Notes: generated from the letters alone by a model not told the origin. Positions 37,050-43,914 are shown, numbered from the stretch's first letter. The stretch is 64,000 nucleotides of DNA from SAR202 cluster bacterium bin22 (GCA_002238505.1 MPMM01000005.1:62001-126000), one strand, 5' to 3'. Made by a program: numbers and translations.

Positions 37050-37262
37050 CGTCTTTCCGGCGAAAGCCGGAATCCGGAGCCCCCTCTTGTGTCATGCGGT
37101 TGACCTTTCACAACCTTCCTGGATTCCGGCTCAAGGCCGGAATGACGATGGGGATGGGGTTTAACCGTCTTTCCGGCGAAAGCCGGAATCCAGAGCCCCT
37201 CTTGTGTCATGCGGTTGACCTTTCGCAACCTGCCTGGATTCCGGCTCAAGGCCGGAACGACG
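37050..37262 (+). repeat. Two copies of the ~98-bp palindrome-bounded repeat
   Basis: Copies at 37050-37147 and 37166-37262 each start CGTCTTTCCGGCGAAAGCCGG and end with TTCCGGCTCAAGGCCGGAA. They are inverted relative to the three copies at 2925-3456. A further common string, TTAGATTCTTCGACTCCGC, is at about 37316. No gene is seen in 36802-37408. Confidence 0.85.
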
Positions 37263-37408
37263 ATACAGATTTAGCAGTCATCATCTCAAACCTGTTGGCC
37301 TGCCAGGGACGGAGTTTAGATTCTTCGACTCCGCTCAGAATGACAGTCCTGGTAGTCCAGGCTGACAATCCGTCTAAACTCGATGGCCCTGAGGGACCCT
37401 CTCCCGCG

Positions 37409-37438
37409 TTGACACCAATTTCCGGGCACAGCTATAGT
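37409..37438 (+). promoter_or_regulatory. Sigma70-type promoter for trxB
   Basis: A perfect TTGACA, an 18-base spacer and TATAGT. Transcription would start near 37445, 26 bases before the GTG start. This is the best promoter match I see in the window. Confidence 0.7.
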
Positions 37439-37470
37439 AGCCTGCACTCTTACCTACCGGAGGTACCTAC

Positions 37471-38394
37471 GTGGCCGGTACTGACACCTACGATCTCCTG
37501 ATAGTTGGCGGCGGTCTGGCCGGACTGACAGCGGGAATGTACGGCGCCCGCTACGGCCTGTCCACTGCCCTCATTGAACAGATGATGGGCGGCGCGCAGA
37601 TTATCAACGTCGAACGCATAGAGAACTTCCCCGGCTTCCCCGAAGGCGTTTCCGGCGCCGAACTGGGCCCCCTGCTGCAGGAGCAGGCCATGAACGCAGG
37701 AATGCAGTTCATCATGGACGAGGCTACCGAGGTTGCCCGGGACGGAGACTTCAAGCTGGTCAGCGGCTACAGCGGCAGCTATCGGGCCCGGGCCGTGATA
37801 GTCGCCACTGGCTCCAGCCTGCGGTCAGCGGGAATACCAGGCGAGGAGGAATACCGCGACCGCGGCGTTTCCCACTGCGCCACTTGCGACGGCCCCATGA
37901 GCATGGGCCAGACAGTGGGCGTGGTCGGGGGCGGCGATTCGGCCGCCGATGAGGCCCTGACCCTCACCGAGTACGCCGACAAGGTACTGCTCTTCCACCG
38001 ACGGGACCAACTTCGCGCCCAGCAGGTACTCCAGGAACGCCTCCAGGAAAACCCCAAGGTGGAAATCCACTGGAATACGACGGTCACGGAGGTGCTGGGT
38101 GACAGCATGGTCACCGGCGCCCGAATACTGAACGCGGCCACCGGCGAGGAGCGCCAGGTCGATCTGAGCAGCCTCTTCGTGTACGTGGGTCTGGAACCCA
38201 ACTCGGGACTGGTGCGCGGCCTGGTGGACACGGACAACGCGGGGCACATCCCGGTCAGCCTGTCCATGGAAACCGCCGAGCCGGGGCTATACGCCGTGGG
38301 CGACGTGCGCCAGCACTCAGTGGCCCAACTGGTGGCTGCAGCCGGGGATGGGGCCACCGCCGCCATTGCCGCCTTCAAGCGGCTGCGGAGCTGA
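37471..38394 (+). CDS. trxB: Thioredoxin-disulfide reductase family protein
   Basis: A 307-residue low-molecular-weight thioredoxin reductase. FAD-binding GGGLAG is at 13-18, the redox-active pair Cys136-x-x-Cys139 in CATCDG, and the NAD(P)-binding GGGDSA at 153-158; GLYAVGDVR near the end closes the FAD site. It passes electrons from NADPH to thioredoxin. HRRDQLRA after the second Rossmann strand holds basic residues expected for NADPH. The start is GTG with GGAGGT seven bases upstream. A membrane-protein gene follows 7 bases after the stop. Confidence 0.93.
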   Translation: MAGTDTYDLLIVGGGLAGLTAGMYGARYGLSTALIEQMMGGAQIINVERIENFPGFPEGVSGAELGPLLQEQAMNAGMQFIMDEATEVARDGDFKLVSGYSGSYRARAVIVATGSSLRSAGIPGEEEYRDRGVSHCATCDGPMSMGQTVGVVGGGDSAADEALTLTEYADKVLLFHRRDQLRAQQVLQERLQENPKVEIHWNTTVTEVLGDSMVTGARILNAATGEERQVDLSSLFVYVGLEPNSGLVRGLVDTDNAGHIPVSLSMETAEPGLYAVGDVRQHSVAQLVAAAGDGATAAIAAFKRLRS

Positions 38395-39027: not shown

Positions 39028-40182
39028 TTACCGCCCCTGCATCAGGGGGAACACACCCTCAGCAAACTTGGTTAGCTGGTCCTTGAAAACCTCCTGGGGC
39101 ATGCCCATTACTGCGCCCAGGTTCACCCGCTCGACGCCCGGATACTTTTCCTCGACGCTCATCAGGTGTTCGGCAATCTGCTCCGCCGGGCCGCACAGCC
39201 AAACATTGTTCTCCACAGCCTCTTCCAGTGTCGGCAACTCAATGCCCTGGGGGCGGCCGGGGCGGGCGACCTCGTCAATCTGCTCCTGGCTCAGGCGCAT
39301 CAGGCCCAGGGGAGCGGCAAACTTGATCGCCTCCTCAAAGTAGGGGCGAGCCTCTTCAATGGCCTTCTCCCTGGTATCGCCGATAAAGAAGCGGTAGCCC
39401 AGGGCCACATCCTCGCCCAAGGCAATTTCCCGACCGTGGGAGGCGGCGCCCTGCTGGTACATTTCCAGGCGCTCGTGCAGCACCGGCTCGGGCGTGTTGG
39501 CGATCAGGGCCTTGATACCCATCTTGCCCATGAAGTCAACGCCCTTGGGGTTGCCGCTGACCAGGGGCTGCCAGATTTCTACCGGCTGGCTTATGGGCCG
39601 GGGCACCAGGCTTATTTTCTCCAGTTGATAGCCACGATAGGGCACGTCGGCGGGGAACTTGTAGTGCTTGCCCTGGTGGGAGAAGGTTTCCTGGGTAAAT
39701 GCCTTTACCAGTACCTCGATCTGCTCCTCGAACAGTTCCCGGTTGGCGTCTCCGTCCAGCATGGGGGCGGCAAAAGTCTCCACCTCGCGGGTGTGGTAAC
39801 CACGGCCCACGCCGAAAATCACCCGACCCTTTGTCAGGATGTCGGCCATGGCAAAGTCCTCGGCCAGACGCAGGGGATGCCACATGGGGGTGATGTTGAA
39901 CCCACAGCCGTACTTGAGCCGTTCGGTGTTGGAGGCAAGGTAGAGGCTCAGCATCAGCAGGTTGGGGATGCACTCGTACCCTTCGGGCTGGAAATGGTGT
40001 TCCGCCATCCAGAACTCGTCATAGCCCAGGCTTTCCAGGTGACGGGAGAAGTCGAGGGCCCAGTCAAAGACGGCGGCCAGCTTCTCGTTGGAATAGTTGC
40101 GGTCGTTGGCGGGGGTGCCCTCAAAGCCCAGGTTGTCGTCCACCACGTGCCCGGCATAGGAAGCGCTAAAACTGCGAAACAT
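39028..40182 (-). CDS. LLM class flavin-dependent oxidoreductase
   Basis: A 384-residue luciferase-like monooxygenase of the longer type. Features are SLGYDEFWMAEHHF (about residues 50-63), the RVIFGVGRGYHTREVE stretch, and a SQPVEIWQPLVSGNPKG strand. These enzymes use reduced flavin and oxygen on substrates such as aldehydes, sulfonates or aromatics. The start is ATG 40182 with AGAGGA seven bases upstream; the frame is open 22 codons further. It lies directly downstream of the low-GC DUF262 fusion gene and is composed like the rest of the chromosome. Confidence 0.9.
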   Translation of the reverse strand: MFRSFSASYAGHVVDDNLGFEGTPANDRNYSNEKLAAVFDWALDFSRHLESLGYDEFWMAEHHFQPEGYECIPNLLMLSLYLASNTERLKYGCGFNITPMWHPLRLAEDFAMADILTKGRVIFGVGRGYHTREVETFAAPMLDGDANRELFEEQIEVLVKAFTQETFSHQGKHYKFPADVPYRGYQLEKISLVPRPISQPVEIWQPLVSGNPKGVDFMGKMGIKALIANTPEPVLHERLEMYQQGAASHGREIALGEDVALGYRFFIGDTREKAIEEARPYFEEAIKFAAPLGLMRLSQEQIDEVARPGRPQGIELPTLEEAVENNVWLCGPAEQIAEHLMSVEEKYPGVERVNLGAVMGMPQEVFKDQLTKFAEGVFPLMQGR

Positions 40183-40271
40183 TTGCTTTTCCTCTAAGTA
40201 ATGTAACTTTGGATTTCGACTTAGCCTGATTAAGTGATTGTCAGTCAACGCAAATCTTACAAGCTCCTGAC

Positions 40272-42524
40272 TTAATTGAACCTCTGCTTGTTATAAGCCT
40301 GAACCTCACTTACGGTCAATTCCCGGGTAGCGGGACCAATGCGGATGAAGAATGACTCATCGCTTCCATCTCTGAGGTAAACAGGGGTCGAAGAACGTTG
40401 GCAATCCAAGACCATAACGCGGGAGTCTTCGTAGTCGTCGAAATGGGCATGTACTGAAGTCATGGCCTGAAACCCTAATCTTGAGATTCCGATATTTGTC
40501 AGATGCAGACTCATTTGGTCTTCGCTTTGGAAATTATCCGTTTCTGTACCTACCGGAGTCCCGTCGTCAGATACACCAATAATCAGTTTTCCACCATTTG
40601 TGTTCAAGAACCCTGCAAGAGTTTTCAATGCCGAATGTTCAATTCGAGGGTCCGACTTACCTGTATGCAAGTTCCTGCGTAATGTTGACTTAAACTCCAC
40701 GGAATCCGATTCTCCACTGGCGATCAATTCCGAAACATCCAACTCTTCAAGAATTGGTTCGGCATTTGCGGTGCCACAAAGCTTTTCATAACCTTCCCTA
40801 GCAATTTGTGCCATCAATTCCTGACGACGTTCCAGGAAAGCCCGGTAATCCATTTGTTCCCAGCTTTGCGGCAGGGCGTGAAAATGGTGCATAGCGCTCC
40901 AATCCTGCTGCGTGAATCGTTCTCTTAGAGGTGGCAAATAATCGGATGGAGACTGGTCTGAAATGCGAACATTGTCGCCCCACTCAACGTAGGCATAGTT
41001 GGCAATTTGGTTGGTGTCTCGTGTTTCTCCAATGCCCGACTTAGACAAATACCCTCTCGGGAACAGGTGGTGTCGTTCAATAGCTGATTTGTTTGATTGC
41101 AGAGTGGGGTCAAGCAGGTCGCTAATTTTGGTGTTGGAGAAGAGTCCGGGAGCTTCTAATACTACCTGAGCTGCTTCGTAAGCATACCGGGAAGGACTAC
41201 TAGCAGCGGAAGTAGCCAAGTTGTTCGGTAAGGTGATCTCCCAGAAATCATTCGTCAACTCTCTGTTGCAAACGTTCCGAAGTCTGCCAACGAATTGACT
41301 CGCATCGGATGCACCTCTTATTAACGCTAGGTCCGATTCCAGGGTTGACTCGGGTGAGCTTGTATATCTGCCAGTCATTGCAGACATAAAGAACCACTGG
41401 GAAATGGTCTTACGCAGTTCAAACTCATTGACCTTAAATTCCGTGCGACCAATCAAGTAGAAGATATATGAAAACAAGAGACCGTTACTCGACGTAATCA
41501 TGTCCTTGCTTCGGAATCCCGCCTGATGAATACATCGCATAAAGTCATGCCAGTACTGAATATTAAGCACTCGCTCCTGCGCCTGTCTTAATACTTCAAA
41601 CTGTGCTTCCCGGCGCTCTGAACTGAATTGCTGAGTTTCAAGATCCTTACCCCTCAGAATAGAATAGATGTACTCCAATCGAGCCCGCTTGAAAGCAAGA
41701 CCTACGCAAACGCGCAACAATTGGTCCGGGTCCGGTTCAATAAAGTGATTGAAAGGTGAAGGACTAGATTCGGAAGGAGTCCGAGATTGACGACAAAACT
41801 CTTCCAACTGCGTTCGCCCCTCGTCCCAGAAAACCGACATCAGGGTTAAAATAAAGTTAGCTTGGTTAAGAGGCACTCCCAAGCTGTTCACACGGACAAA
41901 AACATCGGCAACGTCTTCCTCCGAAATGTTGGCTGCGAGTTGTAGCGCGGTAAAGGGATAGCTCGATAACCCACGTAGTGACTCAATTGAGTTCTGGATC
42001 TTCTCCTCCTCTTCATCCGAAACCTCTCGGTCTGCCTTTAATTTTTCGATGTAGTCTTTAGCCAGACGGATGATTCCTGTTTGAGGGTGCCAGAAGATCG
42101 AAATGTCAGGTATGTACGATTTATCTCGCTGAATAGCAGCATCGGTTACGGCGAACTCTTCGGTCAATGGGTTAAAAGCTATGCGTATATTCTCGGTGGA
42201 GTAATTGGCCCGAATCACCGGCTTGCCTTTAACGATCGCATACAGCGAGGTCAACCGCTGCTGCCCATCAACTATCAGGAGGTCAGGCGGGACTTGTTTG
42301 GAGTCGGTACCGATGTTGCGAGAACCCTCAGTCGCGCCGTTTTCCCACAGTAGTAGGTACCCAACCGGATAGCCCTTATACATTGAGTCAAAAAGATCTC
42401 GGACCTTGGGATTTTTCCAAATAAAAGGACGTTGTATATCAGGCAGGCCAATTCGACCAAGGTCGATATCGTTTATCAAACCAGCCAATTCGTAATCGAC
42501 CTTCTTAAAGATTGTGGTAGTCAT
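40272..42524 (-). CDS. DUF262-HNH-AlbA_2 fusion, candidate defence protein
   Basis: A 750-residue three-part protein. Residues 1-230 are DUF262, the ParB/Srx-like NTPase of the GmrSD and related restriction systems: QRPFIW at 31-36, DGQQRLTSL at 86-94. Residues about 480-530 resemble the DUF1524 HNH nuclease: ERHHLFPR at 483-490, then Asn505 and NYAYVEWGDNVRI. Residues 600-745 are an AlbA_2/Schlafen-like ATP-binding domain: VEFKSTLRRNL at 609-619, LNTNGGKLIIGVSDDG at 640-655, and FFIRIGPATRELT near the end. Sampled 60-base lines give 40-48% G+C against 62% in the gene downstream, which indicates transfer. It stands alone, inserted between ordinary metabolic genes. Type IV restriction or other anti-phage action is inferred. 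Confidence 0.85.
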   Translation of the reverse strand: MTTTIFKKVDYELAGLINDIDLGRIGLPDIQRPFIWKNPKVRDLFDSMYKGYPVGYLLLWENGATEGSRNIGTDSKQVPPDLLIVDGQQRLTSLYAIVKGKPVIRANYSTENIRIAFNPLTEEFAVTDAAIQRDKSYIPDISIFWHPQTGIIRLAKDYIEKLKADREVSDEEEEKIQNSIESLRGLSSYPFTALQLAANISEEDVADVFVRVNSLGVPLNQANFILTLMSVFWDEGRTQLEEFCRQSRTPSESSPSPFNHFIEPDPDQLLRVCVGLAFKRARLEYIYSILRGKDLETQQFSSERREAQFEVLRQAQERVLNIQYWHDFMRCIHQAGFRSKDMITSSNGLLFSYIFYLIGRTEFKVNEFELRKTISQWFFMSAMTGRYTSSPESTLESDLALIRGASDASQFVGRLRNVCNRELTNDFWEITLPNNLATSAASSPSRYAYEAAQVVLEAPGLFSNTKISDLLDPTLQSNKSAIERHHLFPRGYLSKSGIGETRDTNQIANYAYVEWGDNVRISDQSPSDYLPPLRERFTQQDWSAMHHFHALPQSWEQMDYRAFLERRQELMAQIAREGYEKLCGTANAEPILEELDVSELIASGESDSVEFKSTLRRNLHTGKSDPRIEHSALKTLAGFLNTNGGKLIIGVSDDGTPVGTETDNFQSEDQMSLHLTNIGISRLGFQAMTSVHAHFDDYEDSRVMVLDCQRSSTPVYLRDGSDESFFIRIGPATRELTVSEVQAYNKQRFN

Positions 42525-42590
42525 GCGGGGCAGCCTCGGCCATTCAAGTGATTAATCAGCTCTGTTCCGTCAGAAAGCCAGACTCCCCCC

Positions 42591-43511
42591 CTAAACCGAA
42601 GGCGGCGGCGCGGGGGCCGGGTTGTGCAGTTCCACGCCCAGGGTGGCGGGGAAGACGCGGATGATTTCCTCGATCGTCCAGCGGCCGTCTTTGTGCATGG
42701 TCCGGACCGGTTCCGGCTCGTTGAGCATGCTTACCAGACCCTCGGTGACGTAGAAGACGTGCCCGTTGACGTGGGCCGCTTCATCGGAAGCCAGCCACGT
42801 CACGAAGGGGGCCACATCCTCGGGCTCGCCCCGCAGGCCGCCCACGTTGCCCCCGCTCATGCCCCGGGAGGCCCTCAGGTCGCGCGCCTCGTCGGGTACG
42901 CTGCCGATCATGCGGGTCTGGGCGCTGGGCGCGATGGAATTGGCGGTGACGCCGTAGCGGCCCATGTCGCGGGCAACCACCCGGGTGAAACCGGCAATGC
43001 CGTCCTTGGCCGCCCCGTAGTTGGCCTGGCCGGAATTGCCGTACAGGCCGGAGGTCGAGCTAAAGGTGATGACCCGGCCCGACCGCTGCTGTCGGAACAG
43101 GATGCAGGCGTGCTTGATGACGGTAAAGGTGCCCTTGAGGTGAACCTCAATGACGTCGTCCCACTCCTGCTCACTCATGTTGAATATCATTCGATCGCGC
43201 AGGATTCCATGGCAGGTGACGACGGCGTCCAACTTGCCGTAGGCGTCAATGGCGGTCTGGACGATAGTCTCGCCGCCCTCCATGGTGGCCACCGACTCCT
43301 GGCAGGCCACAGCCTCGCCGCCGGACTCGCGAATCTCGGCCGCCACCTGCTCGGCGATGGACTGGTCGGCTCCGCTACCGTCCAGGTTTACCCCGGGGTC
43401 CACGACGACCACCCTGGCACCCTCGGCGGCCATCTGCTGGGCCACGCCCTTGCCGACACCACGGCCAGAGCCGGTTACGATTGCAACTTTGTTCTCAAGA
43501 AGGTTGGGCAT
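42591..43511 (-). CDS. SDR, multifunctional-enzyme-2 type 3-hydroxyacyl-CoA dehydrogenase candidate
   Basis: A 306-residue SDR with TGSGRGVG at 13-20 and catalytic Ser152, Tyr165 and Lys169 (YGAAK). After the fourth strand it reads TCHGILRDRMIF, in which ILRDR is the signature of the dehydrogenase part of peroxisomal multifunctional enzyme 2; the usual NNAG is replaced by TCHG. A long insert with VDPGVNLDGSGADQS and a proline-rich C-terminal extension are also shared with the paralogue at 43942-44859. With the MaoC-type genes nearby it would oxidise 3-hydroxyacyl-CoA. GGAG precedes the ATG. Confidence 0.88.
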   Translation of the reverse strand: MPNLLENKVAIVTGSGRGVGKGVAQQMAAEGARVVVVDPGVNLDGSGADQSIAEQVAAEIRESGGEAVACQESVATMEGGETIVQTAIDAYGKLDAVVTCHGILRDRMIFNMSEQEWDDVIEVHLKGTFTVIKHACILFRQQRSGRVITFSSTSGLYGNSGQANYGAAKDGIAGFTRVVARDMGRYGVTANSIAPSAQTRMIGSVPDEARDLRASRGMSGGNVGGLRGEPEDVAPFVTWLASDEAAHVNGHVFYVTEGLVSMLNEPEPVRTMHKDGRWTIEEIIRVFPATLGVELHNPAPAPPPSV

Positions 43512-43554: not shown

Positions 43555-43914
43555 TCATTCTCGCCCGAGGTAGTCCAATAGCTTGTGCACAAACTCATGG
43601 ACAATCGGGCGGTCATCACTTATTTGGAAGTCTTCAAGAAAGCCATGGTAGTAATTGGCGTGAAATTTTTCGGCGGCTCCGAATCCTTCGCGAAAAATGG
43701 CCTCCCCGGTTTCTTCAGTCAGTTGCCTTGCAGCAACCTTAAGGTTCCGGTGATTCCCATAGGGACATTCACGCTGCTGGCAAACGGCCATCACGGCATG
43801 GGATGCGGCGCCCCATAGCTTTTCACACGCCTGCATCGTGTCCCCTGCAGCGAACTCCGTGTCGGAGACCATCAGAAAGTCCAGGGCCGTTTGCCTGTGT
43901 TCTTGAATCATCAT
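43555..43914 (-). CDS. PaREP1/HEPN-like protein
   Basis: A 119-residue helical protein related to the core of the protein at 20971-21609: FAAGDTMQACEKLWGAASHAV, then Arg48-x6-His55 (RECPYGNH), then HANYYHGFL. PaREP1-type proteins belong to the HEPN superfamily, many of which are RNases or RNA binders. It sits between two paralogous SDR genes on the same strand, with short gaps (27 and 43 bases), so it is probably carried in the same transcript. A nucleotidyltransferase partner is not present. Its role there is unclear. Confidence 0.75.
   Translation of the reverse strand: MMIQEHRQTALDFLMVSDTEFAAGDTMQACEKLWGAASHAVMAVCQQRECPYGNHRNLKVAARQLTEETGEAIFREGFGAAEKFHANYYHGFLEDFQISDDRPIVHEFVHKLLDYLGRE

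Follow-up and report, generated by a model that had tools for sequence, protein, structure and literature searches.

A single gene in the window (the whole 64,000-nucleotide stretch analysed, from SAR202 cluster bacterium bin22, GCA_002238505.1, MPMM01000005.1:62001-126000) encodes a protein in which a predicted GmrSD/BrxU-type core is followed by a Schlafen/SAMD9-type tail. Our preferred reading, to which we assign a probability of about one half, is that the protein works alone as an NTP-driven restriction enzyme of the GmrSD/BrxU/SspE kind and that its two effector modules couple DNA restriction with RNA restriction. A sequence-only reading of the same DNA had proposed a compact defence-type fusion on a low-GC insert, in which the AlbA_2 part could sense or hydrolyse nucleotides. 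The fusion, probably a horizontal acquisition, is retained here, and the nucleotide role of AlbA_2 is given up.

Gene and core architecture

The gene occupies positions 40272-42524 on the minus strand as one uninterrupted reading frame for an intact protein of 750 amino acids, in the order DUF262, helical linker, HNH and SLFN_AlbA_2, which full-length homologues share. The source genome carries one copy of the full-length fusion. The sequence-only reading had these coordinates right and gave no strand; its three-module fusion of DUF262, HNH and AlbA_2 agrees with Pfam, fold matches and motifs, and its observation of a base composition lower than that of the neighbours also holds, with a GC content of 47.3% versus about 61% in the surroundings. 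GC3 is 50% in the fusion gene versus 78-85% in the metabolic neighbour genes.

In the profile search that had been proposed, DUF262 and AlbA_2 scored far above the Pfam curated cut-offs, and the HNH segment of the fusion protein had no Pfam match. The DUF262 (GmrSD_N) module, a ParB-like NTPase spanning residues 14-225 (41850..42485, minus strand; PF03235, E 1.5e-28), also matches BrxU. Its DGQQR motif (residues 86-90; 42255..42269, minus strand), the motif of NTP hydrolysis in BrxU (PMC8565348), is kept in 46 of 46 homologues, and RDLFDS at residues 42-47 is the counterpart of RLFDS in BrxU. A linker that is alpha-helical in the predicted structure (residues 240-430; 41235..41807, minus strand) leads to the HNH (DUF1524-like) nuclease module (residues 431-585; 40770..41234, minus strand), which was assigned by fold matches to BrxU, SspE and DndI and by profile alignment to BrxU residues 480-577. 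Within it, the HNH motif ERHHLFP (residues 483-489; 41058..41078, minus strand) aligns as a motif with DHIYP of BrxU (D474-H475). When a profile of 47 homologues was used, the DUF1524 part of BrxU was matched by residues ~484-576 in a second stretch of alignment, a weak one. GmrSD_C reached 25.9 bits in the homologue L035 (cut-off 23) and stayed just below the cut-off in others. The ERHHLFP motif is conserved in the family; N505 is kept in 47 of the 47 homologues and H486 in 43 (alignment A2).

Structure prediction, likewise proposed earlier, gave an AlphaFold2 model (mean pLDDT 85.8) that aligns to BrxU and SspE. Model residues 6-585 match BrxU residues 1-582 with a Z of 16.7 over 580 residues but at just 14% identity. 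Further alignments were obtained between residues 1-586 and SspE (Z 12.2), between residues 219-586 and the SspE C-terminal domain (7dri; Z 11.4) and with DndI (Z 11.0). Two features that define the GmrSD type are present, namely DUF262 with DGQQR and a C-terminal HNH with a DHIYP-like motif, the latter by fold and profile in a query that has no Pfam match there. On sequence and model, the core is a predicted GmrSD/BrxU-type (type IV-like) restriction enzyme.

A Schlafen-type tail with three acids

The tail (residues 595-750; 40275..40742, minus strand) belongs to PF04326 and has SLFN and SAMD9 matches. The sequence-only reading had made itself depend on a significant AlbA_2 match in this part of the protein, and Pfam SLFN_AlbA_2 is indeed found at residues 605-736 with an E of 5.3e-15. 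When the tail profile was searched against the PDB by sequence alone, SLFN14 (1.7e-10), SLFN11 (1.3e-9) and SLFN12 (3.5e-8) ranked above bacterial AlbA_2 structures. Modelled on its own (pLDDT 96.4), the tail aligned to the bacterial AlbA_2 protein 3lmm (Z 14.3), to the DNA-bound and tRNase structures of SAMD9 (Z 13.0 and 12.5, respectively) and to SLFN14, 11, 5, 12 and 13 (Z 8.8-9.9). Human SLFNs have a two-lobed core made of an N-lobe and a C-lobe, and the tRNase SAMD9 has just one AlbA_2 domain. The two-lobed Schlafen core was not found in the fusion protein, which has a single AlbA_2 copy directly after the HNH module.

Three acidic residues of the tail occupy predicted catalytic positions. 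E605 and E610 (motif E-S-D-S-V-E-F-K; 40695..40712, minus strand) align to E206 and E211 of SLFN14 and D653 (GVSDDG; 40566..40568, minus strand) to D249, and all three are invariant in 24 of 24 members, as are K612 and R728. In SAMD9L, antiviral action and the shut-off of translation both depend on the equivalent acids, and SAMD9 cuts tRNA-Phe (PMC11221667). The E/E/D acids are, however, also kept across the AlbA_2 superfamily, including non-defence proteins. Because general AlbA_2 proteins keep them, the three acids permit nuclease activity and do not prove it, and we did not accept the triad as proof. Loss of the catalytic Asp in non-restriction tails (the ACT protein L134 and the sigma-like L145) was considered as a control and dropped, since an Asp is present one residue away. 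Sequence and model thus identify the tail as a Schlafen/SAMD9-type domain with three putative catalytic acids rather than an ATP-binding sensor, and we infer that it would act as an RNase.

Spread of the fusion and variation of the C-terminal slot

A survey of homologues, also suggested by the sequence-only reading, showed that the fusion recurs. We collected 35 full-length AlbA_2-bearing homologues from a dozen or so phyla, with the fusion present in Acidobacteriota, Planctomycetota, Myxococcota, Pseudomonadota, Bacteroidota, Lentisphaerota, Rhodothermota, Actinomycetota and others. Named isolates with the fusion include Streptomyces antibioticus, Anaeromyxobacter terrae, Psychroserpens burtonensis and Rhizobium sp. 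BK313, and distant full-length forms are carried by haloarchaeal and rhizobial plasmids. Closer to the source, 49 other genomes of the family include two with a full-length copy, 71% and 62% identical and located at the chromosomal position seen in the window, and 400 sampled genomes of the phylum include five (55-62% identity).

The classified proteins comprise 35 AlbA_2-bearing, 45 tail-less and 16 otherwise-tailed members, and the C-terminal slot of the core can be vacant or filled by AlbA_2, RAMA or HEPN. RAMA, by annotation a reader of modified DNA, occupies the slot in 14 actinobacterial relatives as judged by tail similarity, with Pfam confirmation in L005, L081 and L083. In L035 (991-3087) AlbA_2 is replaced by a tail with a sub-threshold match to Swt1-like HEPN, a member of an RNase superfamily, and an R-N-x3-H motif. 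A DUF262-HNH protein from the source family (L010:1102-3162) has a tail of about 130 aa that carries no assigned domain. When mapped onto a DUF262-HNH core tree, the states of the tail (AlbA_2, RAMA, HEPN, unassigned and none) are clustered, yet not each of single origin; the AlbA_2 label requires six changes, at least three of them forced by well-supported branches.

H486, the HNH histidine, is missing from 5 of the 35 AlbA_2-bearing proteins, whereas all 16 proteins with RAMA, HEPN or other tails and all 44 complete tail-less proteins retain it. The losses correspond to two events, one in a chloroflexotal homologue (L019) and one in a Streptomyces/Verrucosispora clade (L058, L070, L072 from S. 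antibioticus and L087), of which another Streptomyces protein (L247) is a fifth HNH-dead member. The clade also lacks N518 and P489, and its ruined HNH sites read DRDNLFH, PRDRLFN and similar. In these HNH-less proteins DGQQR is intact, as is the EFK motif in the tail, and a dN/dS of 0.06-0.29 in each of the four modules indicates purifying selection in the clade. Since HNH decay is confined to tailed proteins and occurs under purifying selection, the tail is suggested as a second effector. Most simply, the protein stays useful without a working HNH and the tail acts as its effector. The data are suggestive of this, not conclusive; two independent events are a small number, which weighs against the preferred reading.

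The same tail on other restriction enzymes

When 400 Chloroflexota genomes were searched, the tail profile gave 24 matches at 91-235 bits, after which scores fell to 58 bits or less. The majority of the 24 lie on DUF262-type proteins. The remainder terminate an HsdR protein (HSDR_N, SWI2_SNF2; L140:860-5485), a type III Res protein (ResIII, RE_endonuc; L142:1327-3852), a type IIG enzyme (Eco57I/MmeI; L143:800-4723), YprA/MrfA-type helicase proteins (L144:1004-6682 and L146:2471-3835) and two further hosts, L134 and L145. The same tail also ends a TaqI_C protein from Armatimonadota (L115:8-1483). In the phylum to which Rhizobium sp. BK313 belongs, 398 genomes yielded nine tails, of which at least five follow the DUF262 core and one follows an HsdS-like protein (L242:307-1965) whose Methylase_S match falls just below the cut-off.

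An ACT-domain protein with no obvious restriction link (L134:997-2001) carries the same tail subfamily, and in L145 the tail sits on a protein with a weak sigma-4 match. With such hosts counted as well as restriction enzymes, the tail is mainly, not only, a restriction module. A scan of viral contigs returned just three tail loci (L243, L244 and L245). Because a copy from Pararhizobium is almost the same as L245, these contigs of the viral collection may include host flanks or mobile elements.

The tree of tails, in which many forks are weak and the label of the DUF262 group changes seven times (at least three of the changes being forced), is too short for the frequency of moves between restriction types to be read from it. 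Tentatively, and somewhat short of even odds, we read this dedicated Schlafen subfamily as an effector that prokaryotic restriction enzymes in general can carry at the C-terminus (GmrSD-like type IV, type I HsdR/HsdS, type III Res, type IIG and YprA-family helicases). It would join DNA recognition to RNA (tRNA) cleavage within a single protein, and may have fully replaced the DNA nuclease in some lineages, here the HNH-dead Streptomyces members.

Proposed mechanism

In BrxU both NTP hydrolysis by DUF262 and DNA cutting by the HNH are established (PMC8565348). In the fusion protein, DUF262 would bind and hydrolyse NTP on meeting foreign, probably modified, DNA, and NTP hydrolysis would license the HNH to cut this DNA, as in BrxU. 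The same switch, or failed restriction, might then release the C-terminal Schlafen-type domain, which would cut host and/or phage RNA, most likely tRNA, and halt translation. Prokaryotic Schlafen systems can act in phage defence according to work on BREX (PMC12839542). We infer phage defence as the role of the fusion protein, as we do the DNA target, the RNase activity with its substrate and the order of events.

The main rival, which we consider rather unlikely, makes the AlbA_2 tail a reader that binds nucleic acid and directs or gates the HNH, while itself lacking nuclease activity. The occurrence of RAMA, a DNA reader, in the same slot of the 14 actinobacterial relatives would fit such a binding role. 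SLFN5 binds tRNA without cleavage and the AlbA_2 domain of SAMD9 has been crystallised with DNA (PMC11221667), while in Argonaute proteins AlbA_2 is treated as a DNA-binding domain (PMC6299218). However, HsdS- and TaqI_C-type hosts already possess a specificity domain, the invariance of all three catalytic acids is not needed for mere binding, and the decay of the HNH in tailed proteins only would leave a pure reader without an effector.

A small defence hotspot

The fusion gene fills a variable cargo slot (40186..42590) between genes for an SDR (42591-43511, minus strand) and an LLM-type oxidoreductase (39028-40185, minus strand), the metabolic flanks that the sequence-only reading had described. 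In the empty relative G003 the gap measures just 66 bp and the LLM protein is 98% identical. The gap of G001 holds a 382-aa, NucS_C/SduA-like protein matching the PADLOC candidate PDC-S11 (7.1e-88), and G000, G004 and G021 carry divergent Schlafen-tailed alleles; the loci considered for the hotspot were window positions 40186-42590, L196 and L197:4647-5795. Compared with the window, G004 has flanks at a dS of 0.38-0.46, with SDR and LLM proteins 97-98% identical, and a fusion that is 62% identical with saturated synonymous sites (pS 0.90). G021 is farther in its flanks (87%) but closer in its fusion (71%). Host-discordant alleles, an empty site and other cargo therefore point to horizontal allele exchange at a small defence hotspot. 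No mobility genes were visible at the SDR-LLM hotspot. The low-GC insert of the sequence-only reading stands as far as composition is concerned. A recent, unique insertion was rejected, since the same site holds divergent alleles, is empty in G003 or carries PDC-S11 in G001.

Two genes from the fusion, positions 43555-43914 (minus strand) encode a 119-aa PaREP1/HEPN-like protein, with similar proteins found again close to the counterpart genes of related genomes. On the other side, an ORF of repeated peptides of the RLSGESRNPE/IPAQGRNDD kind at 37094-37501 of the window probably represents a dispersed intergenic repeat and not a gene.

Some homologues adjoin defence genes. Fused members neighbour BrxL and PglZ (L043), lie within an HsdM-HsdS/HsdR operon (L047) or stand beside a DrmD-like helicase and methylase (L095), a type I REase (L065) or a C5 methylase with Vsr (L100); a distant homologue (L152) adjoins HmaB. 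Several others, the window gene included, are found among ordinary genes and not in large defence islands. The metabolic genes on both sides in the window and in several relatives would suit a gene for housekeeping or regulation, or one directed at plasmids or chromosomal conflicts, and the Pseudomonas DUF262-DUF1524 protein PFLU4242 caused a plasmid fitness cost (PMC8544851). We nevertheless regard a function outside phage defence as improbable. The presence of the gene is patchy, with a full-length copy in only those 2 of 49 other family genomes, its alleles are discordant with their hosts and the site can be empty or hold the different defence candidate PDC-S11, and in other phyla the neighbours are of BREX, type I, DISARM-like or Hma kind.

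The nucleotide-sensing role first proposed, in which the AlbA_2 of a defence protein binds or hydrolyses nucleotides to sense infection, is very improbable. The old Pfam name (divergent AAA_4) hinted at ATP binding, and some AlbA_2 proteins have a separate HATPase_c_4 domain (L077). Against this, the tail contains no P-loop or ATPase motif, its fold is that of the Schlafen/SAMD9 nuclease domain with the catalytic acids kept, and NTP binding is assigned in the fusion protein to DUF262 with its DGQQR (PMC8565348). Misassembly of adjacent genes, which the sequence-only reading had itself raised, or a frameshift or lost stop codon, is a merely general possibility in a metagenome-like assembly and has a negligible chance of being correct, given 35 loci with intact fusions that have no stop, named isolates among them, and low dN combined with saturated synonymous change across the fusion junction.

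Relation to known systems

The core is known already, from GmrSD/BrxU and as HEC-05 in PADLOC. GmrSD-type enzymes carry out NTP-dependent cutting of modified DNA, for example DNA with glucosylated hmC. GmrSD and BrxU, like the fusion, combine in one chain a DUF262 with DGQQR and (R)LFDS, a helical linker and an HNH with (H/D)H(L/I)(F/Y)P, but the Schlafen tail of about 155 residues is absent from BrxU. SspE and DndI are phosphorothioate-sensing DUF262 proteins with the same fold over DUF262 and the C-terminal nuclease region (Z 11-12). They lack the Schlafen tail and work with Ssp/Dnd modification genes, none of which is among the genes adjoining the fusion gene. The best PADLOC match of the fusion protein is HEC-05 (Hma-embedded candidate; 5.5e-33, over four short stretches of PDLC04151), whose models of 566-621 aa correspond to the core without the tail; the HmaB-adjoining homologue L152 was noted above.

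The tail shares the AlbA_2 fold and the E/E/D acids with the animal antiviral tRNases Schlafen and SAMD9/SAMD9L. It differs from them as a single AlbA_2 copy that ends a DNA restriction enzyme, with no Schlafen N-lobe or helicase, and as a putative RNase. In PrrC-EcoprrI an anticodon nuclease is coupled to a type I restriction enzyme as separate proteins (PMC2610378); the idea of DNA restriction with an RNA-cutting fallback is common to both, but the PrrC nuclease is not a Schlafen domain. In coupled systems of that kind the RNase stays silent as long as restriction is not inhibited. Here the RNase-type domain is covalently linked to the DNA restriction enzyme, and it is found also on type I, IIG and III enzymes. 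The protein VNG7073, a DUF262-HNH-HEPN form noted by Anantharaman et al. 2013 (PMC3710099), has the same core and a C-terminal RNase-superfamily domain, but HEPN where the fusion has Schlafen. The extra domains that Machnicka 2015 gives for GmrSD proteins are DUF4268, DUF4357 and DNA_binding_1 only (PMC4619093). In keeping with the sequence-only reading, no description of a Schlafen-tailed DUF262-HNH form was found in the open literature library, where the one paper that names both Schlafen and GmrSD presents the two as distinct effectors close to BREX.

Naturally HNH-dead homologues offer a clean test of whether the Schlafen part alone defends. The preferred reading, if true, would represent a covalent form of the coupling between DNA and tRNA that is known from the separate proteins of PrrC-EcoprrI. 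If the tail is an RNase, such a restriction enzyme would be a DNA cutter and an abortive-infection device at once, and nearly every restriction type would have repeatedly gained a fallback weapon of the animal antiviral type represented by Schlafen and SAMD9.
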